Source: Corynebacterium urogenitale (GTDB taxonomy: Bacteria; Actinomycetota; Actinomycetes; Mycobacteriales; Mycobacteriaceae). Taken from it: a stretch of DNA of 64,000 bases. Positions 3,837-64,000 of the stretch are shown one piece after another (the first letter of the stretch is position 1; each line of letters opens with the position of its first letter). The notes beneath the pieces are model-generated. The model saw only the letters and a list, made by a program, of their open reading frames with translations, was not told the DNA's origin and did not search any database. The stretch lies in NCBI RefSeq assembly GCF_009026825.1, contig NZ_CP045032.1, forward strand, positions 1,922,001 through 1,986,000. Direction: 5' to 3'. A program made the position numbers and the translations under genes.

Positions 3837-3884
3837 GCACGCCAGATTACCAGCGCTGACAGCCATGGAGAAAGGCAATCCTAA

Positions 3885-8592: not shown

Positions 8593-8631
8593 GCGACTCT
8601 CCGTTTCTTCCGCCCCCCACAAACCAAAAAG

Positions 8632-8671
8632 TGGCGTCGTCACCGTGTATATCTTCGATGACGACGCCACT
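8632..8671. repeat. Inverted repeat with GTGGCGTCG arms
   Basis: GTGGCGTCGTCA and its exact complement are separated by 16 nt. It lies between the convergent ends of the membrane protein gene and guaA and could terminate transcription, though there is no clear T-run. The arm contains the 9-mer GTGGCGTCG found in several other intergenic sites of this window, including a second inverted pair with the same 16-nt spacing at 52812. Confidence 0.6.
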
Positions 8672-8789
8672 GCGCACTGTCACAAGCGCAACGCGAGAAA
8701 CTCGACTTTCTCGCGTCTGGATGCATCACCGCCCAGCCACTAGCTGAAAAGTCTAGGCGGATGCATCGTCAGGACTGGAGCGGGGAAAA

Positions 8790-10370: not shown

Positions 10371-10484
10371 GGCTCCACAGTTTACCTGCTGCAACCCTGC
10401 CGATTCGAGTCAGGAGGGCCACGCATCACCCCAGATGGCCGATGAGCACTCCCACTCGAAAGATGAGAGGGCACGGAAAAGAAA

Positions 10485-10521
10485 AACCTCCCGACTGACG
10501 ACTAGCGTCAGTCGGGAGGTT
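10485..10521 (-). terminator. Rho-independent terminator after guaB3
   Basis: A perfect 16-bp stem (AACCTCCCGACTGACG and its complement) with a 5-nt loop. Read on the minus strand it is followed by TTTTTCTTTTCC. It lies just past the guaB3 stop, so guaA has its own promoter or depends on readthrough. Confidence 0.92.
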
Positions 10522-10539
10522 AGCTTCGCACGAAGGCAC

Positions 10540-11700: not shown

Positions 11701-11717
11701 GAAGGTTCAACCTACTT

Positions 11718-13334
<1,617 letters not shown>

Positions 13335-13346
13335 CTAGGCAGCAGG

Positions 13347-13352
13347 TAGTAT
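13347..13352 (+). promoter_or_regulatory. -10 element for leaderless DUF5319 gene
   Basis: TAGTAT ends 7 nt before the GTG at 13360, the spacing expected for a leaderless transcript. Confidence 0.5.
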
Positions 13353-13359
13353 GTGACCT

Positions 13360-13770
13360 GTGACTTACGGTAATCATGATATGCCTTTGGACCCATTCGC
13401 GGACGACCCGAATGATCCGGCCTCTTTATTGGAGCCGGACGACGATTACCCTCCCCTGTCTGACGAGGAGATGAAGGCCTTGCGGGAGGACTTGGCGAAT
13501 GTGAAGGATTTCCGTCGTTACCTCGAGCCACGTGGCATCCGCGGAGTTTCCATGCTGTGCGATGACTGCGATGAGGTGCACTATTACGACTGGGGCATCA
13601 TCGAATCGAATATCACGACTCTCCTGCAGCACCGCATTGTTCCGGTGCATGAGCCTGGCGCGAAGCCCAATCCCAATGATTACGTCACCTGGGATTATTG
13701 CCTAGGCTATGCGGACGCGATGGACTTCGCCTTTCAGCCGGGTCGCCCGCGTTTCCCCTGGAACCGTTAA
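13360..13770 (+). CDS. DUF5319 family protein
   Basis: A 136-residue acidic soluble protein. The segments MPLDPFADDPNDPAS and LCDDCDEVHYYDWGII (a Cys-x2-Cys-like pair) and the ending PNDYVTWDYCLGYADAMDF are characteristic of the actinobacterial DUF5319 family, commonly found beside guaB and sigD as here. Function is unknown; the paired cysteines hint at metal binding, which is inference. The start is GTG 13360 with a -10 hexamer 7 nt upstream; ATG 13381 is an alternative. It ends before a bidirectional terminator. Confidence 0.8.
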   Translation: MTYGNHDMPLDPFADDPNDPASLLEPDDDYPPLSDEEMKALREDLANVKDFRRYLEPRGIRGVSMLCDDCDEVHYYDWGIIESNITTLLQHRIVPVHEPGAKPNPNDYVTWDYCLGYADAMDFAFQPGRPRFPWNR

Positions 13771-13800
13771 AGGTCTGATCACCGTCCCTTTATTCGACGC

Positions 13801-13843
13801 CACGAAGGGCTCCGAAACTACAACAGTTTCGGAGCCCTTCGTG
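13801..13843. terminator. Bidirectional terminator between DUF5319 gene and rsdA
   Basis: A perfect 19-bp inverted repeat, 5-nt loop, between convergent genes. No long T-run on either side, but the stem is very stable. A GTGGCGTCG-type 9-mer (complement) abuts its left arm at 13797. Confidence 0.85.
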
Positions 13844-13856
13844 AAGACGCTAGACC

Positions 13857-14744
13857 CTAGCGGGTGGTATCCGTCTGACTCGTCGCGACGTTTTCGTCGT
13901 GACCAATCATCGGCCCCAACTGACCGTGAGCATCCGGTTGTGGTTGGGATGGCGCGGAAACTCCAGATTCCTCTTCCTCGTCGTCATCTTCCTCGGTGGT
14001 AACGGTTGTGGCGGCCGGGGCTGGCACCTCAGTGCCATCCGCACCAAGCATCGGTATTGCTCCTTCGCCTTGGCCTGATGGCTGCTCACCTTCAGCGAGC
14101 ACCTGGCCATCCGGAAGCGGCTGGGACTGTTCTAATGTTGTGGTAGCCGCGCTCTCTTCGGTTGGTGCAGCCGAAGAGGTCTCCGCGGGTTCTTGCTCTT
14201 CAGGTTTCTGCTGTGGAGCTTCTTCCTGCTGTTCCTGAGCCTCGCCAGCAGTGTCCTCCGCGGTGGAAGCAGCACCACTCGATTCATCTACAGCCGTAGA
14301 AGCATCGCCTTCTGCGTGAACGGTCTGCGGGGTGTCACGGATTGGCAGCGTTCCGTTGTACGCGGCATATCCCAAGCCACCGATCGCCAGCGCTGCGGCG
14401 ACGCCACCAGCAATGAACATGGAAGTCACCGACAAACCACCGGCGGCGGCAAATCGAGCATTGCGACGGATCGTTCCCGCGCGCTCCTTGCCACTACTGA
14501 TGCCGACGACGTTATTTCCCTCTACGCCGTCCTGTACTGCGAAGTCTGGGCCGAGGTGTTCAGCCAGATCAGGAGGCGCCGGGATGTTCTCCTCTGCCTC
14601 TCTGCGGGCGGAGGACAGCAGTGCATACAACGGGGAGTCCTCGTTCTCAACACGCTCTCCCCGACCAATCGCGTCAAGCGCACGATCGTCAGCGAGGACT
14701 TCGGAGAATTCTCCGAAGTCCTGCGTGCCGTTGCCCTTAGCCAT
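13857..14744 (-). CDS. rsdA: Anti-sigma-D factor RsdA
   Basis: About 295 residues. The N-terminal ~80 residues (MAKGNGTQDFGEFSEVLADD, then ALLSSARREAEENIPAPPD) match the SigD-binding domain of RsdA, the membrane anti-sigma factor degraded to release SigD. One membrane helix follows (GGVAAALAIGGLGYAAY, about residue 115–135), then a long outside region rich in Ala, Glu, Gln, Pro and Thr. It lies immediately downstream of sigD. ATG 14744 was chosen; a GTG at 14762, 4 nt after the sigD stop, is also possible. The acidic, low-complexity tail has no recognised fold. Confidence 0.88.
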   Translation of the reverse strand: MAKGNGTQDFGEFSEVLADDRALDAIGRGERVENEDSPLYALLSSARREAEENIPAPPDLAEHLGPDFAVQDGVEGNNVVGISSGKERAGTIRRNARFAAAGGLSVTSMFIAGGVAAALAIGGLGYAAYNGTLPIRDTPQTVHAEGDASTAVDESSGAASTAEDTAGEAQEQQEEAPQQKPEEQEPAETSSAAPTEESAATTTLEQSQPLPDGQVLAEGEQPSGQGEGAIPMLGADGTEVPAPAATTVTTEEDDDEEEESGVSAPSQPQPDAHGQLGPMIGHDENVATSQTDTTR

Positions 14745-14768
14745 GTGAGTCGAATCTTTCACTGGTAT

Positions 14769-15362
14769 CTACGAATCTCTCGCAGAAAATTTGTCCTGCT
14801 GTTTCTCAAGGTGCGCCTTCAATTTTGCGAGGGCTCTGAATTGTGCCACCCGCACCGCTCCCGCCGAGGTGCCCAAAATCTGGGCCGTTTCTTCAGCGGA
14901 ATAGCCTCCGAAAATCCTGAGTGTCAGGATTTCTTTTGCCTTGTCACTCAATAAATCGAGCAGACCAGCCACCTCGTTACACGAATCGAGCACCAACATC
15001 TCCGATTCAGGTGTGGCGGTCACCACTTCCTCGTCCGGGATCTCGTCGGTTGGCTGGGACACATCGCGGGAATGTGCGCGGCGCGCATCCACCACCTTGT
15101 TTGCCGCGATCCGGAAGACAAAGGCCATAAATGGAAGACCTTTGTCTTCATAGGAATTGATGGATTTCGCAACGGCCAAACACACTTCTTGGGCGACATC
15201 ATCCGGGGTGGGGTATTTGTAGGCCGTGAGACGTGCACGGCAGTACCGCACCACCTGGGGGTGGATGAGGTTGATGAGTTCCTGAAGTGCCCGGCGATCA
15301 CCATCGACAGCGCGGGGCACCACAGCCTGTATGGCTGCGTCTGTGTCCTCTGTAGCTGTCAT
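14769..15362 (-). CDS. sigD: RNA polymerase sigma factor SigD (ECF type)
   Basis: 197 residues. Region 2 includes YPTPDDVAQEVCLAVAKSI and the -10-recognition helix around FMAFVFRIAANKVVDARR; region 4 includes DLLSDKAKEILTLRIFGGYS with the HTH ETAQILGTSAGAVRVAQFRA. Corynebacterial SigD controls genes of mycolic acid and cell-envelope synthesis. The order sigD-rsdA next to a WhiB gene and groEL is conserved. ATG 15362 (MTATEDTD) was chosen because the upstream extension is not family-like; GAAGG precedes it closely. Confidence 0.94.
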   Translation of the reverse strand: MTATEDTDAAIQAVVPRAVDGDRRALQELINLIHPQVVRYCRARLTAYKYPTPDDVAQEVCLAVAKSINSYEDKGLPFMAFVFRIAANKVVDARRAHSRDVSQPTDEIPDEEVVTATPESEMLVLDSCNEVAGLLDLLSDKAKEILTLRIFGGYSAEETAQILGTSAGAVRVAQFRALAKLKAHLEKQQDKFSARDS

Positions 15363-15777
15363 AACCTTCGATTTCTTCGATGAGCGAATATTGCCTGGCG
15401 CCGGAGCCGCATATTGAACCCCACCTGAAACTAGCACAACATACCCCTAGTTTTTCCCTTTACCTACGAGTTGCCCCTTCGATGCAGAAGATGCCTCAGA
15501 GGTTCCACCTCGCGCAGAAATACCCAGTTCAAACCCCGTAACGGGGGATAAAAAATATACGTGAAAAACATTTCACTTGCTGTTCACAAAGCTCCATTGT
15601 CGCTGGCAGTCGACAAAAAATCCCCCGTCTTCATCTGCCCATAGTTCCGCGGACACCTATAGAGCACGAAGGGTTTACCTTTCGTTCACTTTCTCCCGTG
15701 AATCTCTATTCGTCAGTGCACGCCCATCATCACGTTCACCCCTTTTAGTGACGAGATAGATCCAAGGAGAACCACCC
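15363..15777. promoter_or_regulatory. Divergent control region sigD / whiB
   Basis: A 415-bp non-coding region. It holds a GTGAAA-AACA-TTTCAC palindrome (15561–15576), a half-site ATACCCCTAG at 15441 identical to the left 10 bp of the operator in front of cdr, and an A/T-rich stretch around 15547–15560 suitable for promoters. No ORF with supporting features is seen. Confidence 0.5.
15561..15576. promoter_or_regulatory. Operator-like palindrome GTGAAA-N4-TTTCAC
   Basis: Perfect 6-bp arms, 4-nt spacer. Spacing does not fit GlxR (TGTGA-N6-TCACA). The protein that binds it is unknown. Confidence 0.4.
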
Positions 15778-16083
15778 ATGCCTCAGCCTCACCAGCTCCC
15801 AGGACCAACTTCTTCCGTCTGGGAGTGGCAGTTGGAAGGCGCCTGCCGTGGTGCCGACTCTTCCGTCTTCTTTCACCCCGACGGCGAACGCGGCCGCGCC
15901 CGAGCCATTCGTGAACACCGAGCCAAGGCTATCTGCGCCGAGTGCCCAGTGATGATGGCTTGCCGCCAGCACGCCCTTGAGGTCGGTGAGCCATATGGAA
16001 TCTGGGGCGGGATGTCAGAGTCTGAGCGGGATGCGATTCTGCGACCAACCTCCCGTAACCGCCACCGCCGACTCTCCGCCTAA
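15778..16083 (+). CDS. whcB: WhiB-family Fe-S transcriptional regulator (WhiB3/WhcB type)
   Basis: 101 residues with the four cluster cysteines C23, C53, C56 and C62 (C-x29-C-x2-C-x5-C) and the turn motif GIWGG before a basic C-terminus (NRHRR) that contacts DNA. WhiB proteins carry a redox-sensitive [4Fe-4S] cluster and bind sigma-A region 4. Its location next to sigD-rsdA and groEL corresponds to whiB3 in mycobacteria and whcB in C. glutamicum; the gene symbol rests on this synteny. AGGAG lies 9 nt before the ATG. Confidence 0.9.
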   Translation: MPQPHQLPGPTSSVWEWQLEGACRGADSSVFFHPDGERGRARAIREHRAKAICAECPVMMACRQHALEVGEPYGIWGGMSESERDAILRPTSRNRHRRLSA

Positions 16084-16221
16084 AGCCCTACTTACAGCTC
16101 AGTCTCACCGGCGCCTTTCTCCAATGCGCCGATGGAGACCCTTCAGCTGACTCAAGGCGACGAGACGCAGCGACCCCTGTGGTTTGCGCACTCGTGGCGT
16201 CGAAATAAAAGGAAAGAAAAC

Positions 16222-16258
16222 AAGCCCGGTACCTCCAGCAAAGGGAAGCGCCGGGCTT
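16222..16258 (-). terminator. Terminator after groEL
   Basis: An 8-bp stem (AAGCCCGG/CCGGGCTT) with a 21-nt loop. On the minus strand it is followed by GTTTTCTTTCC, just beyond the groEL stop. A GTGGCGTCGAA element lies on the other side at 16189. Confidence 0.7.
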
Positions 16259-16283
16259 ATTCTGGCTCTCGGAGACTGAGAGC

Positions 16284-17912
<1,629 letters not shown>

Positions 17913-18209
17913 TTACTTTTCGATGACAGCCAGGATGTCGCGCTGGCTCAGCAGCAGGTACTCCTCGCCGTTGTACTTCAGCTCGGTGCCGCCGTACTTG
18001 GAGAAGACGACGGTGTCGCCTTCCTTGACGTCCATCGGGATGCGCTCCTCGTTGGAAATGCGACCCGGACCCACAGCGATGACGGTTGCCTCCTGTGGCT
18101 TCTCCTTAGCGGAGTCAGGGATGACCAGGCCGGATGCGGTGGTGGTCTCTGCCTCGACGATCTGAACGAGGACGCGGTCCTCGAGCGGCTTGATGTTCAC
18201 GTTAGCCAC
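17913..18209 (-). CDS. groES: 10-kDa chaperonin GroES
   Basis: 98 residues ([16 protein letters not shown] … DILAVIEK), with the mobile loop around [14 protein letters not shown]. It caps GroEL. GTG 18209 has GGAGG 8 nt upstream and gives the normal N-terminus; the longer frame is spurious. The 5' region contains a CIRCE element and a separate TTCGAAA palindrome, so heat-shock control by HrcA is expected. Confidence 0.97.
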
Positions 18210-18238
18210 GATGAATACCTCCGTGTATCCGTAGTGCG

Positions 18239-18255
18239 TTCGAAAGATTTTCGAA
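18239..18255. promoter_or_regulatory. TTCGAAA-N3-TTTCGAA palindrome in groES leader
   Basis: TTCGAAAGATTTTCGAA is a perfect 7-bp inverted repeat, 30 bp before the groES start. Another CTCGAATG follows about 12 bp away, giving a series of TTCGA-like words. It could be an operator or an RNA hairpin; no regulator is assigned. Confidence 0.4.
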
Positions 18256-18333
18256 TGTGTCTCGAATGTGCCTCGGTTGGTTTTCCGTGCACAGCCGTCG
18301 TCGCGGGTGAACAACTGTGTGTCAAACAACCTA

Positions 18334-18360
18334 CTGGCACTCTACCGCCGCAAGTGCTAA
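18334..18360. promoter_or_regulatory. CIRCE element (HrcA operator)
   Basis: CTGGCACTC-N9-AAGTGCTAA. It matches TTAGCACTC-N9-GAGTGCTAA at 7/9 and 8/9 positions with exact spacing, 125 bp upstream of groES. Confidence 0.88.
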
Positions 18361-18414
18361 CTCTCAACAAAAACGAAGGCTTAGTTGATACTACCCCGCT
18401 CAAGGTTGGAAAAA

Positions 18415-18436
18415 GCCCCGCACAACTGCGCGGGGC
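18415..18436 (-). terminator. Terminator after the gene at 18478
   Basis: GCCCCGC stem, 8-nt loop, followed on the minus strand by TTTTT; 42 bp past the stop of the upstream hypothetical gene. Confidence 0.85.
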
Positions 18437-18477
18437 GGGCTTCATTTGGCCCATCCACGGTGGGCGAGGGTCTAAAT

Positions 18478-18906
18478 CTACAGGCCGCGAGTCAGGTTGA
18501 TCACCGCGTCATGCCAGAGGAGGTATTCCTCCTGCTGATCTTCCTGGTAGTGCTCCAGAGCCCGAATCCCGTTGAACACAGAATCTACTTCTTCATCAGT
18601 AAGGTCTGCTCCACCTTCACCAACAAAGAGCACGGGCCCCAGAATCGCGCGGGTGGGATCCGAAAGGAAGCGGGAGTCTCCCGTCTCACTCTCCTTACGC
18701 CCCATCGACGCCAGAGGATTCGGCTCAGGGCGCTCAGCCTTCGCCGCCTCGGAAGAATAGATCGCTGCGATGGTCAAACCGGATTCTACGAAAGCCACAT
18801 GCAGGCGGTCATCACCGCTGCCTCCAAGCACTTCACCGGCCTGGGACAGCTCGATATCCAATTCCTCGACCTTGAGGTCCGGGGTTACCAATAGGCTGCG
18901 CGCCAT
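18478..18906 (-). CDS. Conserved hypothetical protein downstream of tsaD
   Basis: A 142-residue acidic soluble protein beginning MARSLLVTPDLKVEELDIEL and ending DQQEEYLLWHDAVINLTRGL. It has no membrane segments and no catalytic motif that I recognise. Its position between groES and tsaD, on the same strand, is typical of a corynebacterial conserved hypothetical. The 167-bp gap to the fused tsa gene suggests its own promoter. AGGAGAAG lies 4–11 nt before the ATG. Confidence 0.75.
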   Translation of the reverse strand: MARSLLVTPDLKVEELDIELSQAGEVLGGSGDDRLHVAFVESGLTIAAIYSSEAAKAERPEPNPLASMGRKESETGDSRFLSDPTRAILGPVLFVGEGGADLTDEEVDSVFNGIRALEHYQEDQQEEYLLWHDAVINLTRGL

Positions 18907-54831: not shown

Positions 54832-55013
54832 ACTAGCCTCCCATGAACGAAAGAATCACACAGCGTGGTGTTACCCGCGTGTGCGCGGACGTGTGATGCC
54901 TGCGTGATCCTTCGAGGTTTACGGACATACAACCCCAAAATAGTATCAGTTCGGGGTGCGCGCGCTAAACCGGGAGACGCAATTTTTCTCGCTTTTTGAG
55001 CGCAGCAATAGAA

Positions 55014-55047
55014 AAGCACCACCCCACCTGCGGTGGGAGTGGCGCTT
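55014..55047 (-). terminator. Terminator after rplO
   Basis: Stem of about 15 bp with one mismatch and one bulge around TGC, followed on the minus strand by TTTTCT; ends the rpsH–rplO unit before secY. Confidence 0.85.
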
Positions 55048-55075
55048 GGAAAGTTCGCTACGAACTTAGGGAGAC

Positions 55076-55522
55076 TTAAGCCTCGGTGACGGAGCCACCT
55101 GCGGCCTCAATTTTCTCCTTCGCAGACTTGGAGAACTTCTGAGCGGTGACGTTCAGCTTGACGCTGATCTCGCCGTTGCCCAGAACCTTCACTGGCTGCT
55201 TTGCACGAACCAGGCCTGCAGCAACAAGGTCTGCAACGGTGACGTCGCCACCGTTAGGGAATGCCTTCTCGAGGTCCTCAACGTTGACAACCTGGAAGAC
55301 AACCTTGGCTGGGTTCTTGAAGCCCTTCAGCTTTGGCAGACGCATGTGTAGTGGCATCTGGCCACCCTCAAACGCTGCAGAAACCTGCTTGCGAGCCTTC
55401 GTACCCTTGGTACCACGACCGGCGGTCTTACCCTTGGATGCCTCACCACGACCCACGCGGGTCTTGGCCTGGTTAGCACCCTTGGATGGACGGAGGTCGT
55501 GGAGCTTGATTGGATCGCTCAT
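55076..55522 (-). CDS. rplO: 50S ribosomal protein L15
   Basis: 148 residues ([37 protein letters not shown]). Last gene of the rpsH-rplF-rplR-rpsE-rpmD-rplO unit. Confidence 0.98.
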
Positions 55523-55524
55523 TG

Positions 55525-55710
55525 TTACTCTCCTGCCACTTCTTCGACCTTGACCATGTGGCGCACAGCATTGATCATGCCGCGGACGACAGGCGTGTCC
55601 TCACGGACAACTTCCTGACCGATGCGCTTCAGGCCGAGGGAACGCAGCGAATCACGCTGGTTCTGCTTGGTTCCGACGGTGCCCTTCAACTGGGTGATCT
55701 TCAGAGCCAT
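55525..55710 (-). CDS. rpmD: 50S ribosomal protein L30
   Basis: 61 residues ([20 protein letters not shown] …). Two bases separate it from rplO. Confidence 0.98.
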
Positions 55711-55713
55711 TGT

Positions 55714-56352
55714 TTATGCCCCCTGTCCTGCAGCGCGAGCGCGAAGCATTGCGGCTGGTGCAACCTCTTCGAGGGACTTACCACGGCGGGCAGCAACCTC
55801 TTCAGGGCGCACGAGCTGCTTCAGGCCATCCACGGTTGCGTGGACAACGTTGATTGCATTGTCGGAGCCCAGGGACTTGGACAGGATGTCCTGCACGCCA
55901 GCGCACTCGAGCACTGGACGAGCAGCGCCACCAGCGATCACACCGGTACCTGGGGCAGCTGGCTTCATCATGACGATGCCGGCTGCGGTCTCACCCTGAA
56001 CTGGGTGGGTGATGGTGCCGTTGATCATTGGGACGCGGAAGAAGTTCTTACGAGCCTCTTCTGCACCCTTCTGGATAGCAGCTGGAACTTCCTTGGCCTT
56101 GCCGTAGCCAACGCCGACCATGCCCTGGCCGTCGCCGACGATGACGAGAGCGGTGAAGCTGAAGCGACGACCACCCTTGACAACCTTGGAGACGCGGTTG
56201 ATGGTCACCACGCGCTCGATGTACTGGTTGCGCTCGTCCTGCTGCTGGTTGCGACGATCGTTACGACGGTCGTTGTTGCGGCCGCCGCGCTCGTTGCGGT
56301 TGTTGTCGTTGTTCTCGGCGGAGCGTCCGCCGTTACGTTCACGTCCCGACAT
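55714..56352 (-). CDS. rpsE: 30S ribosomal protein S5
   Basis: 212 residues. A ~45-residue Arg/Asn/Asp-rich N-terminal extension, usual in corynebacteria, precedes the S5 double-stranded-RNA-binding and C-terminal domains ([20 protein letters not shown]). ATG 56352 has GAAGG upstream; the GTG one codon earlier is the alternative. Confidence 0.97.
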
Positions 56353-56392
56353 CACGCGTTCCTTCCGTTGGTGTTGTAGTTAGCGGTGATCA

Positions 56393-56803
56393 TTAGAACT
56401 TCAGACCACCTTCGCGGGCAGCGTCGGCCAGAGCGGCGACGCGACCGTGGTACTTGTAGCCGGCGCGGTCGAAGACCACTGACTCGATGCCAGCGGCCTT
56501 AGCGCGCTCGGCGATCAGCTGACCCACCTTTGCACCGCGTGCCTTCTTGTCACCCTCGAGGGAACGCACTTCTGGCTCCATCGTGGACGCAGCGGCCAGG
56601 GTGTGGCCAGCCACATCGTCGATGACCTGAACGTGCATGTGACGAGAGGTACGGTGCACAACGAGACGTGGAGCCTCTGGAGTACCGGAGAGGTTCTTGC
56701 GGATGCGGAAGTGGCGACGTGCGCGTGCCACGCGGCGGCGGGTGGAGATGTCCTTGCCCACCGGCAGGCGCTGGCCTTCCTTCTTGGATGCGTTGTTGCT
56801 CAT
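56393..56803 (-). CDS. rplR: 50S ribosomal protein L18
   Basis: 136 residues ([41 protein letters not shown] ending); binds 5S rRNA. ATG overlaps the rplF stop by one base. Confidence 0.98.
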
Positions 56804-57339
56804 TACTTACCCGTCTTTCCATCCTTGCGACGGATCTGCTCACCCTCGTAGCGGATGCCCTTACCCTTGTAAGGATCGTCCTTCCGCAGACGGCGGATGT
56901 TGGCGGCGATCTGTCCAACCTGCTGCTTGTTGATGCCCTCGATGGAGAACTTGGTGTTGCCATCCACGGCAAAGGTGACGCCCTCCGGAGCCTCAATGAG
57001 GATCGGGTGGGAGTAGCCCAGTGCGAACTCCAGGTTCTTGCCCTTAAGCTGCACACGGTAACCAACACCGAAGATTTCCATCTTGATGAGGAAGCCCTTG
57101 GTCACGCCCTCGACCATGTTGTTGATCAAGGAGCGGGACAGGCCGTGCAGGGAACGGCTCTTGCGGTGATCATCCGGACGGTTGACAACGATCTCGTTGT
57201 CTTCCTGAGAGACGGTGATCGGTGCCGGAATCTCCTGAGACAGGGTGCCCTTAGGGCCCTTGACCTCAACGTTCTGGCCGTTAATGGTGACGGTGACGCC
57301 AGAAGGAACGGTCACCGGTGCCTTGCCAATACGAGACAT
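56803..57339 (-). CDS. rplF: 50S ribosomal protein L6
   Basis: 178 residues ([20 protein letters not shown] … [20 protein letters not shown]). Standard spc-operon order. Confidence 0.99.
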
Positions 57340-57353
57340 TGGTAAACCTCCTC

Positions 57354-57752
57354 TTACCAGACGTAAGCGAGGACTTCGCCGCCCACGCCCTTGTTAGTGG
57401 CCTCACGGTCGGTCAGCAGGCCGTGGGAGGTGGAGATGATCGCCACACCCAGGCCGCCCAGAACCCTAGGCAGATTGTTGGACTTTGCGTACACACGCAG
57501 ACCCGGCTTGGAGACACGGCGCACGCCAGCGATGGAACGCTCGCGAGATGGGCCGTACTTCAAGGTGATTTCGAGGGTCTTGCCGACCTTCTCTTCGTTT
57601 ACGGAGTAGTCAGCGATGTAACCTTCCTGCTTGAGGATCTCGGCGATGTTTGCCTTGATCTTGGAGGAAGGCATGGAGACGGAATCGTGGAACGCGTTGC
57701 TAGCGTTCCGCACGCGGGACAGCATGTCCGCGATCGGATCAGTCATGGTCAT
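57354..57752 (-). CDS. rpsH: 30S ribosomal protein S8
   Basis: 132 residues ([20 protein letters not shown] … [11 protein letters not shown]). Normally it follows rplE(-rpsN); here more than 2.4 kb of foreign-looking DNA intervenes, so it must have its own promoter in the gene-free stretch upstream. Confidence 0.98.
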
Positions 57753-58097
57753 AGATTGTGACCTTGTGCCTTTCTCGTTGCGGTTCCCAGTCTCACCCTA
57801 GAAATTGCGTGTACCGCGCGTTCATTGGCCACTCATCGCCCCACACACTCAATAGCGTGTGGCGCTCGCTGCCTTATCTTCGCGCGGCCGCTTGGGGCAA
57901 GGGGCCTACAACAAAGTGGTTGATATGAACTTGACCTGTGAGCATGCGCAAGTGATGTGCTGTGCACACAGACTTGTCCACCCTACCCTCTCAAGACTTT
58001 TTTCCCAAATATTCCTGAAATGAGAAAAAGCCGCGCCCTCCGAGGAGAAGCGCAGGTGGAATGTCCTGAGACCCTAGAGAAGGTCTGGGTGGCTGAA
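57753..58097 (-). promoter_or_regulatory. rpsH upstream region
   Basis: 345 bp without a gene. It presumably carries the promoter of the rpsH–rplO unit. It ends with a hairpin plus T-run (58033–58053 and beyond) that would stop transcripts coming from the lanthipeptide remnant. Confidence 0.5.
58026..58053 (-). terminator. Terminator-like hairpin upstream of rpsH
   Basis: GCGC/GCGC and CTC/GAG stems with a small internal loop, followed on the minus strand by TTTTTCTC. Confidence 0.55.
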
Positions 58098-58294
58098 ATT
58101 ACTCAGCGGAGCCAGCCTTCTTGAATGGGAAGCCCAGCTCGCGGAGCAGAGCACGACCCTCGTCATCGTTGGTTGCGGTGGTCACAACGGTGATGTTCAT
58201 ACCGCGTGAACGGTCAACCTTGTCCACGTCAATGTCGTAGAACATGGATTGTCCCGACAGATCGAGGGTGTTCTTACCGTGGCCGTCGAACTGC
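58098..58294 (-). pseudogene. Truncated, diverged second copy of the rplE 3' end
   Basis: About 197 bp align with positions 60219–60415, the 3' third of rplE including its stop codon. The last ~40 codons are nearly identical (…[19 protein letters not shown]), while the inner end carries clustered amino-acid changes. It is a fragment with no start. Together with the intact rplE it brackets the lanthipeptide remnant as a direct repeat. Confidence 0.93.
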
Positions 58295-58326
58295 GTGAAT
58301 CTTGCTGCAGTACAGGGCGTCTGTCC

Positions 58327-58797
58327 TTATATTCCCAGACTCGTGACGTCGGGATATTCTTGTGGATCAAGTTCGTGGAGCAGCGTGAGGATGGCACCCG
58401 CTCGTCCAAGCATGAGCGAGTCAGTGGAGGAATATTTGTCCTCGTAGTTAGTCTTTTCCCTTGACGTGATGTATTTTGAGCGGTTCACGATCTCTTTGTG
58501 CATCGACGCCGCCAGAGCCTCATCGTTTACTAACTCCGCGTACCTCTTCAGCACACGCAGTGATCCCAGATCCCCGTGGCACACCGTGGAATTATTTCCG
58601 ACGCCTCGCTGACGGACATATCGGGCTAGATTGTGGAGCACCTCCGGGTCTGTGCGAAAACCATTTTCCCAAGCGATAGTGAGGCCAAGCAGAACACCAG
58701 GGGCGCCTTGGCACCATGCCGCGTCTTTCCTTTGATCGGTCTTCGAACGCGTAACTGCCCCTGTGCTGTCTACCGCATCCTCCAGGGCATCGATCAT
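58327..58797 (-). pseudogene. LanM C-terminal cyclase fragment
   Basis: 156 residues from an internal ATG. Contains WCQGAPGVLLGL and CHGDLGSL, the Cys and Cys-His zinc ligands of the LanC-like cyclase domain, and a LanM-like ending (LMLGRAGAILTLLHELDPQE). A complete LanM is about 900–1000 residues with an N-terminal dehydratase; that part and the first cyclase His motif are missing. The upstream frame is closed by a stop within about 22 codons. Best read as the 3' end of a broken class II lanthipeptide synthetase. Confidence 0.82.
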
Positions 58798-58856
58798 TTC
58801 CTTGACGCTTTGTTCCGTTTGTGCCTTCAGCGAAGACTGAGGAGAAAGAACTGTCG

Positions 58857-59150
58857 TGGGCGTCGATCACTTAAAAAACTCAACAGCACGCCCCCACCCT
58901 CATAGCAAGACGGAGAAACAAGGTTGAGCTGGACTTTTCCACCTATCTGATGCGTGGTGAGCCAGCTAGCACTCGTCCGACCGTCATGGGTTGCCGTCAC
59001 ACGCTCGGGCAAAGATGCGGGAACAGTCACATTCTCACGGCGGAAACCAATATCTGCATTTTCATAGGGGTCATTGCCCACCGCAGATAGGTACAGCTCG
59101 ATGCGCCGAATCTGCTGACCAGGGTTCCCCAGCCCTGACCGGCAGCGTTA
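58857..59150 (-). pseudogene. LanM mid-region fragment (start of cyclase domain), frameshifted
   Basis: A frame running from about 59150 encodes RRIELYLSAVGNDPYENADI and then ASWLTTHQIGGKVQLNLVSP followed by SCYEGGGVLLSFLS. This is the order seen in LanM just where the cyclase domain begins (W-x-T …, then P-S-x-Y-x-G-x-x-G-x-x-L-F-x-x-L). It ends in unrelated residues after a frameshift and a deletion of perhaps 200+ residues before the C-terminal fragment. Its 5' part overlaps the lanA-like ORF in another frame. Confidence 0.6.
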
Positions 59151-59206
59151 GCCTCCGGTACGTACTGATCGGAAATCTCTTCGAAAATGCCAGCGTTCTT
59201 GATCAT
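59027..59206 (-). CDS. LanA-like leader peptide ORF (probably truncated or fused)
   Basis: 59 residues. Starts MIKNAGIFEEISDQYVPEAN after a strong ribosome site (GAGAGG). The F-E-E-I-S-D-Q stretch resembles leaders of plantaricin/lacticin-3147-type class II lanthipeptides (…EEVSDQ…). The region after residue ~25 (GWGTLVSRFGASSCTYL) has one Cys and several Ser/Thr, but the frame then coincides with the LanM fragment in another frame, so the core is likely replaced by a deletion junction. May still be translated. Confidence 0.5.
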   Translation of the reverse strand: MIKNAGIFEEISDQYVPEANAAGQGWGTLVSRFGASSCTYLRWAMTPMKMQILVSAVRM

Positions 59207-59859
59207 CGGTTTTCCTCTCTGTGAAACGCTGTAGAAGGTGAATGCGGATTGCGCTGTAGAGCGCCACCTGAAACTAGCAACGACGTTGAGGCCCCACAGC
59301 GGGAATATTTTGCACATTTACACAAAAAAGACGTATGCCGCTCACGCAAGAACGCAGGGTAGCAAAGTTAATATACTGAATATCTTATTTAGTATTTATG
59401 TTTACATTATGCTGATCATTTCCTCCGCAATGCTATGATCAGCACAAATCAAAACATCAAATAGGGCGTTTCAATCTCAAGGCGCTCCGACGTGCACCTT
59501 TCACCTGAGGAGCACTTATCTCACCCCTGAGTTAGCGCTAATTAAATTACCTTTCAAATTTTGTTTGCCTTCTATCTATGTACCTCAGGGCCCTTCACCC
59601 CCTTAAACTCCCCCCCGTGACACTGTACCGCCACCCTTACACCCCCACGGCTCACTAACGAACTCCCGCCCCCCTCATTCCCATGCACGCGAGTCACTCA
59701 CCTACCCGGCACCACAGGAATTCCTCTGATAATATTCATCGGCGGAATAGCTTCTGGCCATTTCTTAAATCACCAGTAGCACTGTAACCCGCACGCACTT
59801 AACCCTGGTGAATAATCCCCGTTCCCTATCCCCCACGAAAAGGATTGTCTTCGACTATT
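59207..59859. other. Gene-free, A/T-rich then pyrimidine-rich DNA inside the island
   Basis: 653 bp. 59330–59460 is strongly A/T-rich, unlike the rest of the window, and contains a 10-bp inverted repeat (59410–59444); this is probably the promoter of the lan remnant. 59460–59830 is C/T-rich on the plus strand with many CCCC runs; no coding potential seen. Confidence 0.6.
59410..59444. promoter_or_regulatory. Inverted repeat TGCTGATCAT-N15-ATGATCAGCA
   Basis: Perfect 10-bp arms in A/T-rich DNA about 200 bp upstream of the LanA-like ORF. Possible operator for a regulator of the lost bacteriocin cluster, or a hairpin. Confidence 0.5.
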
Positions 59860-60051
59860 ATGTTCCGGTCTCAGGACAATAAGCTCCGTACTCTCTGGCT
59901 GGTTCTCTCAGTCATCCTCGCCGCTGTAGCACTTTTCGGAGCAATGCACTGGGCGCCCGTACACGGCAACAGCACTGGCCTACTGTGGGCCATCTTCGCC
60001 CTCATGGCCGTGCAGTCTTACTTCCTCTATAAGGAAGGCAAGCAGCCCTAG
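59860..60051 (+). CDS. Small two-helix membrane protein
   Basis: 63 residues from ATG 59860 (MFRSQDNKLRTLWLVLSVIL). Two hydrophobic helices (LWLVLSVILAAVALFGAMHW; GLLWAIFALMAVQSYFLY) and a basic end KEGKQP. It is the only plus-strand gene in the island. Size and topology would fit a bacteriocin immunity protein, but this is inference; no family recognised. No good ribosome site. Confidence 0.55.
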   Translation: MFRSQDNKLRTLWLVLSVILAAVALFGAMHWAPVHGNSTGLLWAIFALMAVQSYFLYKEGKQP

Positions 60052-60060
60052 TAGACACCA

Positions 60061-60152
60061 AAAATCCCGCACTTCCCTTCCTTGATCATCCTCTTCCCCA
60101 GTAAAGCAAGGGAACAGATTGGTGATTGTAGGTTTAGGAAGTACGGGATTTT
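60061..60152. repeat. Long-spaced inverted repeat after the small membrane protein gene
   Basis: 16-bp arms (AAAATCCCGCACTTCC and GGAAGTACGGGATTTT), one mismatch, 60-nt spacer. Lies between the convergent 63-residue gene and rplE. Confidence 0.6.
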
Positions 60153-60173
60153 CCCGTGGTCGACTCTCCTGCG

Positions 60174-60195
60174 AAAACCCCCGTTGAGGGGTTTC
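60174..60195 (-). terminator. Terminator directly after rplE
   Basis: AAACCCC-N6-GGGGTTT followed on the minus strand by TTTTCGC, 26 bp past the rplE stop. It ends rplN-rplX-rplE transcription before the island. Confidence 0.82.
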
Positions 60196-60220
60196 CGCAC
60201 GGATCTAGGCTTTCGCCGAA

Positions 60221-60790
60221 TTACTCAGCGGAGCCAGCCTTCTTGAATGGGAAGCCCAGCTCGCGGAGCAGAGCACGACCCTCGTCGTCGTTGGTTGCGG
60301 TGGTCACGACGGTGATGTTCATACCGCGTGGACGGTCAACCTTGTCAACGTCGATTTCGTAGAACATGGTCTGCTCGGTCAGGCCGAAGGTGTAGTTACC
60401 GTGGCCGTCGAACTGCTGATCAGACAGGCCACGGAAGTCACGAATACGTGGCAGCGCGACGGTCAGCAGGCGGTCCAGGAACTCCCACATACGGTCACCG
60501 CGCAGGGTCACGCGGGCGCCGATGGGCATGCCTTCACGCAGCTTGAAGTTAGCGATAGCCTTCTTCGCGGTGCGGATCTGTGGCTTCTGGCCGGTGATCA
60601 GGGTCAGGTCCTCGATAGCCCCGTTGATCAGCTTGGAGTCACGAGCTGCATCGCCGACACCCATGTTGACGACAACCTTGGTGACGCCTGGGATCTGCAT
60701 GACGTTCTCGTACTTGAACTCAGAGTTCAGTTTCTCGCGGATCTCAGCGCGGTACTTGGACTTCAGGCGTGGAGTGTAGTTTTCGCTCAT
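60221..60790 (-). CDS. rplE: 50S ribosomal protein L5
   Basis: 189 residues ([20 protein letters not shown] … [10 protein letters not shown]), complete. Binds 5S rRNA. Third gene of rplN-rplX-rplE. The 3' end is duplicated at 58098. Confidence 0.98.
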
Positions 60791-60792
60791 CG

Positions 60793-61107
60793 TTAGATGT
60801 CCTTCCCGTTGCGCTTGGAGACGCGGATCTTCTTGCCGTTCTCGTCGAAGCGGTAGCCAACACGGGTTGGGTTGCCGTCGGAATCAACGACCATCACGTT
60901 GGAGACGTGGATCGGAGCTTCCTGGGTCACGATGCCGCCGGACTCAGCGCCTCGCTCTGGTGCGGAGTTGGCAACGTGCTTCTTGATGCGGTTAACACCT
61001 TCAACGAGGACCTTGTCCTGCTTCGGGTAGGCCTCAATAACCTTGCCCTTAGCGCCCTTGTCTGGGCCGGAAATGACGAGCACAGTGTCGCCCTTACGGA
61101 TCTTCAT
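60793..61107 (-). CDS. rplX: 50S ribosomal protein L24
   Basis: 104 residues ([20 protein letters not shown] … [10 protein letters not shown]), KOW motif at the start. Its ATG immediately follows the rplN stop. Confidence 0.98.
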
Positions 61108-61479
61108 TTAGAGCACCTCCGGAGCGAGAGAAACGATCTTCATGAACTTCTTCTCGCGAAGCTCACGAGCCACTGGGCCGAAGATACGGGTACCGCGTGG
61201 GTCATTGTCGTTTGCCTTGATGATGACGGCTGCGTTCTCATCGAACTTGATGTAGGAGCCGTCCGGACGACGGGTCTCCTTCTTTGCACGAACGATGACG
61301 GCCTTGACGACCTCGCCGGCCTTTACGGTGCCACCTGGGGTGGCCTCCTTGACCGTTGCGACGACGACATCACCGATACCAGCGAAGCGCTTCGTGGAGC
61401 CACCGAGCACGCGGATGACCAGGATTTCCCGGGCACCGGTGTTGTCGGCTACTCGCAGGCGCGATTCCTGTTGAATCAC
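61108..61479 (-). CDS. rplN: 50S ribosomal protein L14
   Basis: 123 residues ([20 protein letters not shown] …). Start codon is GTG 61479 with AGGAG 6 nt upstream. First gene of this spc-operon segment. Confidence 0.98.
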
Positions 61480-61737
61480 TTGAGTCTCCTCATAGACCTA
61501 GATTGATTGACGTGCGTGGGATTACCGACCCTCGCGCACATGGTCCGTGCCTGTTAACAGGCAACCAGGGCATTATTCCACGGCTCTGACGGAAGAACAA
61601 ATTCCCCCGCCACCGACACCTCCTGAACCCCGCTAGTAACGCGTATTGATTATCATGTTAGATTTCTTGCGTACGCAGACAGCAGACTCATCACACAATT
61701 CCGCTGTCCTTCCCCTGACTTTTCCGAAGGATTCCTT
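61480..61737. promoter_or_regulatory. Divergent control region rplN / secreted-protein gene
   Basis: 258 bp. Contains the 16-bp perfect palindrome TGCCTGTTAACAGGCA (61548–61563) and an A/T-rich stretch near 61645–61670. No ORF supported. Confidence 0.5.
61548..61563. promoter_or_regulatory. Perfect palindrome TGCCTGTTAACAGGCA
   Basis: A 16-bp palindrome about 69 bp upstream of rplN. Candidate operator; no regulator recognised. Confidence 0.45.
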
Positions 61738-62076
61738 ATGAAGATCAAGAAGTCCCTGGTAACACTCACCACCGCTTCCGCAGTCGCGCTCTCTGGCTCC
61801 GCCGTCGCCGTTGCCGATTAAGTCAAGCCCGCAGACACCGCCGCGACTCAAGAGGGCTCCCTGGCTGGCAGCTCCTCCAACAATGCCGAAGGCTCTTCCA
61901 TCAACGACCTTTTCGGCTGGAAGGATAAGGGTGACCTCGACGCAAAGGGCGAGCCAGCAGAGCCAACCAACCTCCTGAAGAAGATCACGGACATGGCTGC
62001 TCTCTTCTCAGCCATCGTCGGCATTGTTGGCACCGCCGCGACCCTCATGACCACCCTGGATAAGTTCATCAAGTAG
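61738..62076 (+). pseudogene. Small secreted helical protein gene with in-frame stop after the signal peptide
   Basis: ATG 61738 with AAGGA 5 nt upstream encodes a clear signal peptide (MKIKKSLVTLTTASAVALSG then SAVAVAD). The next codon is TAA (61819–61821). The same frame then continues open for 84 codons: a polar Ser/Asn-rich stretch and an amphipathic C-terminal helix (LLKKITDMAALFSAIVGIVG then TAATLMTTLDKFIK), then TAG and a strong terminator. The intact product would be a ~110-residue secreted protein resembling small corynebacterial porin or surface peptides. One nonsense change explains the break. Confidence 0.75.
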
Positions 62077-62119
62077 TCCCGCCACCACCCGGCTGGGCCC
62101 CTCGGAGCCACTATTCTCC

Positions 62120-62153
62120 AGCCCCGCAGCACCCTGCGCAGTGCTGCGGGGCT
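62120..62153 (+). terminator. Rho-independent terminator after the secreted-protein gene
   Basis: 13-bp perfect stem (AGCCCCGCAGCAC and its complement), 8-nt loop, followed by TTCCTTT. Confidence 0.92.
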
Positions 62154-62243
62154 TTCCTTTGCCTACGTTAAGGGCTTTGCGCCTTCCAACTATCAATTCA
62201 ATGCCGAAAGAGCTCCGTCAAACCCCTTTCGCACATCAACAAG

Positions 62244-62262
62244 TAAGGGTAGGCTCACTAAC
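62244..62262. promoter_or_regulatory. DtxR-like iron box at the SIP gene promoter
   Basis: TAAGGGTAGGCTCACTAAC matches the DtxR consensus TTAGGTTAGGCTAACCTAA at 13 of 19 positions, with the central TAGGCT intact. It overlaps a -10 hexamer (TAGGCT, 62250–62255) placed 10 nt before the start codon. Confidence 0.55.
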
Positions 62263-62265
62263 ATT

Positions 62266-63189
62266 ATGGCTCCTTATTCACTTGCTCTCGACACAATTAC
62301 CGCCAGCCAGGCTCAGCGAGCTTCCTTCGCCGACCATCGCTTGGTGCTCGCACCTTCAAATCCTGAGCACCGCATTATCCGCGCCACCGTGTCTAGTGTC
62401 TCCGCCCCGGCAGAGAATCTCCGGCGCATCATCGTTGAGGCACCCGAACTCATTGGCTTTCAGCTCACCGGCCCCGATGAATTCTTTGGACTTTTCATCC
62501 CCCCTTACCGTGGCGCAGAACTCCACCTTCCGTCGGACACCTCCGGCTCCAATATCCGAGCCGCCGTCGCAGCTATGCCGGATGAGCATCGCCCCTCGCT
62601 GCGCTGGTACACCATTCGAGCCACAGACCCCGCACGTGGTCGCATCACCTTCGATGTGGTGACTCATGGCGTCGCTAAGCCCGAGGCCGAACACAACGGC
62701 CCCGGACTGACCTGGGTGCTCGGCGCCCACATCGGTGACGAGGTCGGCATCTGGACCTGCCAGGGACTCTGGCATCGGGGCTTTACCTCGCAAACCCTCA
62801 TTGCCGACCCGTCCTCCGTCCCTTCAGCGCGCGCAATCCTTGAGTATGCCGAGGCCTTCGCCCCGGAACAGCTCCATGAGATGCACCTCATCATCGTCGC
62901 GGAAAGCTACCGCGACCTCGAACCCTTCCTCATCGCCGACTGGGAGAACAAACTAGGAAGCCTCGAGCTCATCTTCGGCCCCGCCGCGGAATTTAGCGTC
63001 ACCACAACGTCCTTCCTCCAACAACTGGACCAATTCCACCACCCCGCCACCCGCTCCCACTACGTCTGGGTGGCCGGCGAAGGAAGGCTATGCAAGGAAG
63101 TGCGGCGGCACGCGATCAACAACTGGGGACTACCAAGCAATTCAGTGCAGTGGTGCCCATACTGGTTCCTCGGAAAGGCCCGCCCCTGA
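62266..63189 (+). CDS. Siderophore-interacting protein (FAD-dependent ferric-siderophore reductase)
   Basis: 307 residues. The FAD-binding N-domain has RWYTIRATDPARGRITFDVV and WVLGAHIGDEVGIW; the C-terminal SIP domain has HLIIVAESYRDLEPFL, SHYVWVAGEGRLCKEVRR and the NNWGLPSNSVQWCPYWFLGK ending. Such enzymes release iron from imported ferric siderophores using NAD(P)H. ATG 62266 appears leaderless and lies against a DtxR-like box, so iron repression is expected. The decarboxylase gene that follows may belong to siderophore synthesis. Confidence 0.92.
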   Translation: MAPYSLALDTITASQAQRASFADHRLVLAPSNPEHRIIRATVSSVSAPAENLRRIIVEAPELIGFQLTGPDEFFGLFIPPYRGAELHLPSDTSGSNIRAAVAAMPDEHRPSLRWYTIRATDPARGRITFDVVTHGVAKPEAEHNGPGLTWVLGAHIGDEVGIWTCQGLWHRGFTSQTLIADPSSVPSARAILEYAEAFAPEQLHEMHLIIVAESYRDLEPFLIADWENKLGSLELIFGPAAEFSVTTTSFLQQLDQFHHPATRSHYVWVAGEGRLCKEVRRHAINNWGLPSNSVQWCPYWFLGKARP

Positions 63190-63293
63190 CCCCACCTAGG
63201 GGTAAAAGGTGAAGTTTTTTCACGCCGATTTTTCGACGAACACACTGGTCAGAGAACAAGTAAGGTGAACCTAATGTGATACTTCAGAAACAT

Positions 63294-63312
63294 TCAGGTT
63301 AGGTATGCCTAC
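63294..63312. promoter_or_regulatory. DtxR-like iron box before the PLP decarboxylase gene
   Basis: TCAGGTTAGGTATGCCTAC matches the DtxR consensus at 13 of 19 positions, with an intact left half AGGTTAGG. It lies just upstream of a -10-like TACCCT (63320–63325), 7 nt before ATG 63333. Confidence 0.55.
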
Positions 63313-63332
63313 CCTTTGTTACCCTGCCTGGC

Positions 63333-64000
63333 ATGGACAACATATCCCAGCCCTCCGGGGCTTCCTTCGCTGTGCCCTCAACGCCCAGCAACCCAATACA
63401 TCCTGATTCAGAGTTCGACCTCAACCATGACCTCGTTGGGCACAAGGCCGTACATCTCGACGATGCCCTCCGCCACGCCGCAAACACCACGAGCGAATAC
63501 CTCACCACGGCGGAGCACCCGTGCCCGACACGCAGTATCGATTCCCTGCGCGAGACCATCGACGGCATCGACCTCACCCAACCCCTCCACAGTCTCGATG
63601 AATGCATCGCAGAGCTGAAGGACATCTGGCTCAATCACGCCGTGTGGTACCACCACCCGCACTACATTGCCCACCTCAACTGTCCCGTCTCAGCCAGCGC
63701 CGTTGCAGGCGACATCCTAGCCAGCGTCGTCAACACGGCAGTGGAAACTTGGGATCAGGCCTCCTCCGCAGCGCTCATCGAACAAAAGCTCATTCGCTGG
63801 ACCGCCTCCACCATGAGCTGGGATCCCACCCGCTCCAACGGGGTCTTTACCTCCGGCGGCACGCAATCGAACCTGCAAGCGATGCTGGTAGCCCGCAACA
63901 AAGCTCTACACCTGCACAGCACACATTCCATACAGTCCCTGCGCATCTTCGTCTCCGAGGATGCCCACTACTCCATCGCTCGCGCCGCCCACATCCTCGG
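63333..64000 (+). CDS. Group II PLP-dependent decarboxylase (3' partial), likely siderophore pathway
   Basis: Open to the window end (222 codons). After a ~70-residue N-terminal region come VWYHHPHYIAHLNCPVSAS, SWDPTRSNGVFTSGGTQSNL and EDAHYSIARAAHILG, the order and motifs of L-2,4-diaminobutyrate/aromatic-L-amino-acid decarboxylases. Members of this family make 1,3-diaminopropane for hydroxamate/citrate siderophores. A DtxR-like box and the SIP gene upstream support an iron role; the exact substrate is unproven. The PLP-Lys is beyond the window. Start ATG 63333 looks leaderless. Confidence 0.85.
   Translation, partial: MDNISQPSGASFAVPSTPSNPIHPDSEFDLNHDLVGHKAVHLDDALRHAANTTSEYLTTAEHPCPTRSIDSLRETIDGIDLTQPLHSLDECIAELKDIWLNHAVWYHHPHYIAHLNCPVSASAVAGDILASVVNTAVETWDQASSAALIEQKLIRWTASTMSWDPTRSNGVFTSGGTQSNLQAMLVARNKALHLHSTHSIQSLRIFVSEDAHYSIARAAHIL

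Follow-up and report, generated by a model that had tools for sequence, protein, structure and literature searches.

How does what looks like a dead bacteriocin cluster come to lie among ribosomal protein genes, bracketed by two copies of the same gene end? The interval between rplE and rpsH of Corynebacterium urogenitale raises this question, and we analyzed it in a window of 64,000 nucleotides (nt), bases 1,922,001-1,986,000 of a single-contig 2.35 Mb genome (labelled G000), against a sample of 242 genomes of the genus, G000 and 241 others. The interval looks like the dead remnant, presumably silent, of a two-peptide class II lanthipeptide (lantibiotic) cluster. In our best explanation, to which we give a probability of roughly 0.47, homologous recombination within the rplN-rplX-rplE block brought about an exchange of cargo, and the block ends left behind decay.

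Remnants of a two-peptide lanthipeptide cluster

The features of the locus, including its open reading frames (ORFs), are, in order along the window:

57354..57752, minus strand: rpsH (S8), the downstream edge of the gap (Pfam Ribosomal_S8, E 7e-51)
58097..58294, minus strand: rplE', a 5'-truncated second rplE 3' end of about 64 codons plus stop (91% to 60219-60416; Ribosomal_L5_C, E 4.4e-10)
58291..58326, minus strand: lanM2 3' flank common with G241, ending in GCAG (pairwise alignments)
58327..58854, minus strand: lanM2 remnant, last 175 codons plus stop, open frame, containing ORF 58327-58797 (LANC_like, E 1.7e-20; 88% in amino acids to G241 LanM2)
58855..58868, minus strand: deletion join of lanM1 and lanM2 (blastn ends overlap at 58856-58867)
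58856..59114, minus strand: lanM1 remnant, a middle piece of 84 amino acids (aa), open frame (76% aa to G241 LanM1)
59116..59221, minus strand: lanA1 remnant, leader from the ATG at 59206, core lost (86% nt to G241 lanA1; ORF 59027-59317)
59222..59702, strand unassigned: A/T-richer stretch without match in the loci compared (base composition; blastn, E 0.01)
59845..60051, plus strand: small ORF of 68 aa, membrane-protein-like by eye, convergent with rplE (in 6 of 242 genomes)
60061..60199, no strand: inverted repeats in the space separating rplE from the small ORF, where a terminator might be expected
60221..60790, minus strand: rplE (L5), intact and full-length (Pfam)
60793..61107, minus strand: rplX (L24) (ORF; tblastn to relatives; named by position and reading)
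61108..61479, minus strand: rplN (L14) (ORF; matched in 241 of 242 genomes; named by position and reading)

Between intact rplE and rpsH, the lanA leader, the LanM middle piece and the LanM C-terminal piece are collinear on the minus strand, and the original prediction of a class II lanthipeptide remnant at this place is borne out by the LANC_like match, by orthologues and by collinear blocks. The C-terminal piece (58327-58797) matches the LanM model TIGR03897 at E 4e-16, with 58 bits against a whole-protein cut-off of 304, and aligns at 88% to residues 855-1030 of the intact LanM2 of genome G241, which is taken as Corynebacterium sp. 320, a protein of that organism being 100% identical to G241 LanM2. 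The profiles that speak for this piece are silent on the middle piece (58856-59114), whose overlying ORFs have no Pfam or NCBIfam match and which is identified by its orthologue only: over 84 aa it shares 76% identity with G241 LanM1, a LanM distinct from the first. Judged by these matches, the two pieces come from two different LanMs that have been joined; the earlier picture of a single LanM that lost its middle, right about large deletions, was rejected on that ground.

Four blocks are common to the window and the G241 locus, in identical order and orientation: three lan blocks (G241 2078985-2079089, 2081135-2081393 and 2088819-2089397) and one that includes the small ORF (2077273-2077656). 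Relative to the G241 order, the lanA1-lanM1 join lacks 2,045 nt and the lanM1-lanM2 join 7,425 nt. As a control, 200 shuffles (in two-base blocks) of 58297-60220 were searched against the 33-kb G241 locus at E 1e-3, and none gave a match. These collinear homologous blocks indicate descent from a two-peptide class II lanthipeptide cluster. Both LanM pieces are free of stops in frame, and the lanA1 leader continues out of frame into lanM1; because both LanM pieces remain open, the cluster must have decayed by deletion, probably recently.

What survives is fragmentary. Instead of a full LanM (DUF4135 plus LanC-like cyclase) the window holds the cyclase C-terminus only, and instead of a precursor with leader and Cys/Ser/Thr core it holds a leader whose core is lost. 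Comparison with the G241 locus found no LanT/LanFE block in the window gap, and a search of the whole genome for DUF4135 (dehydratase) gave no match, a weak negative since the positive controls were also silent. The lanM2 remnant differs from its G241 counterpart at 13, 9 and 45 sites by codon position, and residue H904, invariant in five close LanM2s, is Q in the remnant. The stretch beyond the lanA1 leader had been described as A/T-rich and promoter-like. Its composition agrees with this (GC 0.48-0.49 in scanning windows over 59000-59749 vs 0.53-0.64 in the others of 55000-64000), but a scan for sigma-70-like promoters across 57700-60350 found 0, against a shuffle mean of 2.2. A blastn search with 59222-59719 against the compared loci gave no match at E 0.01.

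The intact cluster of G241, at 2078999-2089361 and about 0.28 Mb from rplE, is the only close intact orthologue among the 242 genomes and is predicted to encode a candidate two-peptide lantibiotic from Corynebacterium. Its genes all run in one direction, in the order lanA1, lanA2, lanM1, lanT, LanF-like ATPase, ABC-2 permease and lanM2. Both precursor genes are complete as ORFs: lanA1 scores 34 bits with the plantaricin C family NF000539 (above the cut-off of 29) and 22.6 bits with Pfam Lantibiotic_a (below 27), and lanA2 scores 23.5 bits with the LchA2/BrtA2 family, just under the cut-off of 26. LanM1 is a 1056-aa ORF whose last 811 aa were scanned, giving DUF4135 and LANC_like above their cut-offs and 231 bits with TIGR03897, below the cut-off of 304; LanM2 (1030 aa) has both domains above their cut-offs and reaches 414 bits against the same 304. 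LanT joins a C39 peptidase to an ABC domain, and the permease match is weak (20.1 bits vs a cut-off of 27). Titles and abstract openings yielded no literature on this cluster.

Close relatives of the cluster are few. The window's LanM2 piece matches 3 of the 242 genomes, namely G000, G241 (89%) and G198 (33%), and the G241 LanM1 part matches eight, namely G241, G000 (74%) and six others at 24-41% (E 1.4e-7 to 6e-4). The LanM2 family is narrow, with five proteins at 100, 90, 87, 86 and 65% and the next at 30% or less among 8000 candidates scored; of two contig scans, one gave no match and the other LanMs of 20-27% only. Distant LanM-like proteins (25-26%) lie at L086 (G175:C12:81469-82491), G177:C22:176744-177538 and L085 (G198:C16:29341-30129), and the rplE genes of G175 and G177 are 93-94% identical to the window's. 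A plasmid origin of the lan genes was rejected, since the 175 PLSDB records that match LanM2 all fall below 60% identity. Also rejected was the small plus-strand ORF as an immunity gene, because G050, G098, G167 and G173 have this ORF without a LanM1 or LanM2 match. The ORF itself (59845-60051) has no Pfam match above cut-off; it is an rplE neighbor in G050 too, and it adjoins the lan cluster in G241. A terminator scan made no terminator call at the inverted repeats beside it (60061-60199).

The open gap and the second rplE end

The spacing of rplE and rpsH was examined in the 89 genomes common to the best 149 of 242 for each gene, an ordering by similarity to the window in which near relatives are over-represented; 13 of these are drafts with the two genes on different contigs, and 76 have them on the same contig. 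The genes lie apart in all 76 pairs listed. The gap measures 760 to 82,880 nt in 73 of them (median 7,593, or 8,132 over all 76) and is wider in three: 1.41 Mb in G121, and 330 kb in G032 and 424 kb in G150, where the rpsH is a second copy. The two genes are likewise split in Corynebacterium glutamicum, as cg0610 (rplE) and cg0628 (rpsH), according to a passage of PMC1578569. Gap cargo varies: G007 has FecCD with one ABC ATPase, G241 has ABC ATPases together with a periplasmic-binding protein, and G050 has a VTT-domain protein and the small ORF. The lan remnant thus sits in a naturally open gap: a place "inside the spc operon" is literally true of it but ordinary, and the ribosomal operon is not the unexpected site it had been taken for.

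The bracketing of the remnant by two rplE 3' ends, seen from the start, is real: 58097-58294 and 60219-60416 form a direct repeat of 198 nt at 91% identity. Across the 242 genomes the next best match to rplE' after the resident gene is that of G049 (87% over 179 nt); in a set of 32 rplE sequences used for identities and a maximum-likelihood tree, the next best stands at 85.9%. In the tree, rplE' is the sister of the resident rplE (98 support), with the resident on a near-zero branch and the relic on a branch of 0.12 that carries the changes. Since rplE' is both nearest to the resident gene and its sister, it more probably arose as a duplicate of the resident rplE, or of that of a member of the same species, than from a distant donor. 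The notion that an incoming cassette brought the second end with it is not supported.

A protein search for rplE gave two matches in 10 of the 242 genomes, from which G206 and G236 were dropped as one gene in two pieces. In a DNA search with rplE', 11 genomes had two matches, among them three new ones, G030, G095 and G142, which were dropped as well: a search with the whole gene did not recover the second match of G030 or G095, and that of G142 spans 27 nt. Eight genomes thus carry a second rplE copy. In G000, G059, G061, G144 and G145 it lies downstream of rplE and points the same way; in G039, G098 and G184 it lies elsewhere. When the downstream copies are compared with the intact genes among the 32 sequences, each is nearest to the resident rplE of its own genome (90.9, 97.2, 95.2, 93.9 and 94.4%, respectively), the identity of the G144 and G145 relics to the sister genome's rplE being equal to that to the resident. 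In the tree, each downstream copy is the sister of the resident gene. In these five genomes the cargo has on each side a copy of the block, or of the 3' part of it, the two copies being direct repeats. Between the copies, G059 has a siderophore uptake set (SIP, Peripla_BP_2, FecCD and ABC ATPase), G144 the similar, siderophore-type SIP and Peripla_BP_2 together with a PKD-domain protein, and G061 a helix-turn-helix (HTH) regulator with an MFS transporter. The relic of G061 is rplN' fused to rplE', i.e. a collapsed block, and those of G144 and G145, 99.4% identical, were counted as one event.

The expectation that relatives would carry the intact cluster at the same place is not supported by the 242 genomes, in which its only close intact orthologue is that of G241, far from rplE; that island nevertheless bears an rplN scar that fits a former ribosomal address. 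It is placed between the small ORF and an rplN fragment (rplN'). After the lanM2 stop, G241 and the window agree for 36 nt, to GCAG; past it the window has rplE', itself starting GCAG, whereas G241 has a stretch that can be clearly recognized as rplN after a further 44 nt. The idea that GCAG marks a special end on the lan side was rejected, the common end being explained by one microhomology deletion in the window. The identity of rplN' is 89.9% over 99 nt to the rplN of the window and of G037, 83.8% to that of G007 and 79.8% to G241's own; a tree built on 117 nt places it, on a long branch, with G037 (82 support). Because rplN' is closer to the window and G037 than to its own genome's gene, and the small ORF stands at the other end, the G241 island seems to have originated in a ribosomal neighborhood, in that part of the genus to which the window belongs. 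A small ORF at one end and rplN at the other would fit a source with cargo between two block copies, of which the window would be a later, more worn state. Left of the G241 cluster lie transposase remnants (L025 8730-10009 and 12100-12850), namely HTH_38 and rve matches below cut-offs and a stretch between the small ORF and lanA that looks IS256-like by eye in translation.

Extra copies away from the resident gene have varied company. The extra rplE of G184 is 98.2% identical to that of G037 and lies between a transposase pair and SIP, and beyond SIP come Peripla_BP_2, a nonribosomal peptide synthetase of 3618 aa and a lysine/ornithine monooxygenase; this island (L082/L022, G184:C1:1320500-1356000) is 95% identical over 4.1 kb to the gap cargo of G037. 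In G098 the rplE' (246 nt), accompanied by the small ORF, is not on the contig that carries rplE; in the tree it falls with the copies of G037 and G184 (67 support). G039 has a complete second rplN-rplX-rplE block, whose rplE is 98.6% identical to its own; in this one-contig genome it is found far from the ribosomal operon (L046, G039:C1:1558000-1575000, at 3133-4384). Second rplN matches occur in 4 of 242 genomes (G039, G061, G170 and G241). A siderophore-type island (FecCD, VTT, Peripla_BP_2) with a second rpsH is seen in L075 (G150:C1:1384000-1403000, at 8382-18851) and also in L076, L077, L078, L079, L080 and L081; this rpsH is 92% identical in aa to the window's, with a score equal to that of G037's. 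The island is 99.97-100% identical over 7.7-14.1 kb in G150, G032, G238, G160, G156, G086 and G082, which points to very recent transfer of a ribosomal protein gene with cargo, although five of the seven are drafts in which contamination is possible.

Proposed recombination in the block and its rivals

In the explanation that we favor, the lan cluster would have sat in the rplE-rpsH gap that is natural to Corynebacterium. Its position there, with one copy of the rplN-rplX-rplE block on either side, would most likely be the work of homologous recombination within that block. The route may have been a single crossover with incoming DNA that carried cargo plus block, or an unequal exchange between sister chromosomes, and the outcome would be cargo between direct repeats of the block, with the spare downstream block free to decay. 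In the window, a deletion at the GCAG microhomology would have left only the last 198 nt of the spare rplE, and two further deletions would have taken most lan genes, including transporter and immunity. Recombination between the block copies could also release the cargo again. The downstream relics as kin of the resident gene, the rplN'-rplE' relic of G061 and the rplN' of G241 support the placement of cargo between block copies. An initially complete spare block, entry by recombination, the order of events and the silence of the remnant are our inferences.

Several observations weigh against this explanation. No genome examined has an intact lan cluster between two intact blocks, and the window's rplE' comes without any rplN or rplX remnant, the complete spare block being deduced from G061 and G241 only. 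The rpsH of G144 and G145 lies outside the 19-kb stretch compared. Transposase genes stand beside the displaced ribosomal protein pieces of G184 and G150, and transposase remnants near those of G241, so that transposition is a live alternative for those pieces. Second protein matches among the 242 genomes number 10 for rplE (8 without split genes), 4 for rplN and 8 for rpsH, and 26 for the control rpsD, at least G048 and G199 of which are split-gene-like by best E; the S4 domain of rpsD also occurs in other proteins, and the block is not shown to be special by these counts. The mark of decay in the codon positions of the relic is also faint: against the resident gene, rplE' differs at 5, 3 and 10 sites in codon positions 1, 2 and 3 (6, 3 and 10 in a first count), compared with 2-6, 1-4 and 10-24 for 12 intact pairs taken as reference. 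The relics of G061 (2, 1, 5), G144 (3, 4, 14) and G059 (3, 2, 10) are no clearer, and the slight first- and second-position shift is weak evidence of relaxed selection.

Foremost among the rivals, and in our judgment unlikely, is that the second rplE end arose as an independent local tandem duplication, through slippage or unequal sister exchange, and that the lan cluster came separately into the open gap by ordinary transfer. The kinship of the downstream copies with the resident gene, their sister in the tree, and a gap open in every pair listed speak for this, but cargo lies between copies in four separate lineages, and the rplN' of G241, nearer to other species' rplN than to its own, suggests that ribosomal pieces travel with this cluster.

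Less probable still is that insertion sequence (IS) activity moved the cluster, with the ribosomal protein pieces as transposition passengers. An rve/HTH transposase pair is directly beside the displaced rplE of G184 (L022 33-1375, with rplE at 1531), an rve ORF (L075 7860-8312) directly adjoins the siderophore island of G150 at its truncated rplF/rpsH end, and G241 has the IS256-like stretch already mentioned as well as, left of its island, the matches to HTH_38 and rve, neither of which reaches its curated cut-off. Against these stand the 13 ORFs of the window gap (shorter or overlapping ones being left out), none of which matches a transposase, and the downstream second copies, which are kin of the resident gene, unlike transposed foreign cargo.

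Site-specific islands classically show cargo next to a duplicated gene 3' end, and the window would fit this if a tyrosine or serine recombinase had integrated the cargo at the end of rplE, so that the second 3' end would be the one that restored the gene (attL/attR). We hold this to be very improbable: the same 13 gap ORFs include no recombinase, though one may have been lost from so degraded an element; in place of short identical att repeats the window has 198 nt at 91%, and across genomes the repeats run to 168-528 nt at 91-97%, neither short nor identical; and the partner in G241 is rplN, not rplE. That the remnant is kept for use, with an orphan LanC-like piece or the lanA leader with a new tail being expressed, is scarcely credible, since the codon pattern of lanM2, which together with the open frames would favor it, is accounted for by selection before decay, H904 has changed to Q, no promoter-like site was found, the gap has no LanT/LanFE block, and the genome-wide search for DUF4135, weak for its silent controls, was negative.

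Recombination in the block may have a wider bearing, to which we attach a good deal of doubt. The free-standing rplN-rplX-rplE block of Corynebacterium could serve as a homology-driven exchange port, at which cargo such as siderophore islands, a lantibiotic cluster or exporters enters or leaves between block copies as a circle or as a unit with block sequence, without a dedicated recombinase, and truncated ribosomal protein genes beside cargo, whether in the home position or at other places in the genome, would then be its footprints, even across species. Candidates for cross-species footprints are the rplN' of G241, the rplE' of G098 and the rplE of G184, 98.2% identical to that of G037.

Neighboring cargo and known systems

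Upstream of rplN, window positions 61739-63189 include a siderophore-interacting protein gene (62266-63189), preceded at about 61739 by a signal-peptide-like start without a long frame (by eye). This is iron cargo on the other side of the rplN-rplX-rplE block, its binding protein perhaps broken.

Two-peptide class II lantibiotic clusters of the lichenicidin/haloduracin kind have a known gene order. G241 resembles them in its two lanA genes, two lanM genes, C39 LanT, LanF-like ATPase and permease, whereas no more than a leader and parts of two lanMs survive in the window, and the narrowness of the G241 LanM2 family also sets it apart. Variable cargo between core genes, swapped through homologous recombination in the flanks, is likewise a known pattern. 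The present locus is similar in having conserved ribosomal protein genes on both sides and differing cargo in each genome looked at, but here the ends of the flanking genes are duplicated and travel with the cargo. Identity of ribosomal protein genes has been suggested to assist transfer, in the relevant passages of Bonham et al. 2017 (PMC5526665); the gene in that case is the S1 gene in Brevibacterium. RUSTI in Glutamicibacter lies on an integrative and conjugative element at tRNA-Leu, and no rplE scar is described in the parts of its account that we drew on. Descriptions of rplE or rplN scars beside cargo in Corynebacterium were found neither in titles and abstract openings nor in passages of PMC5526665, PMC12715929 and PMC1578569. 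The cluster type is known; the scar pattern is unusual, and it is testable.

A dead bacteriocin cluster is in itself ordinary, and what is informative here is its edges. These suggest that an operon that is among the most conserved can supply the homology that moves cargo between species, and worn fragments of ribosomal protein genes may be readable as a record of that movement. If this is true, fragments of rplE, rplN and rpsH would provide a sequence tag by which islands that moved recently could be found in a genus that matters to both industry and medicine.

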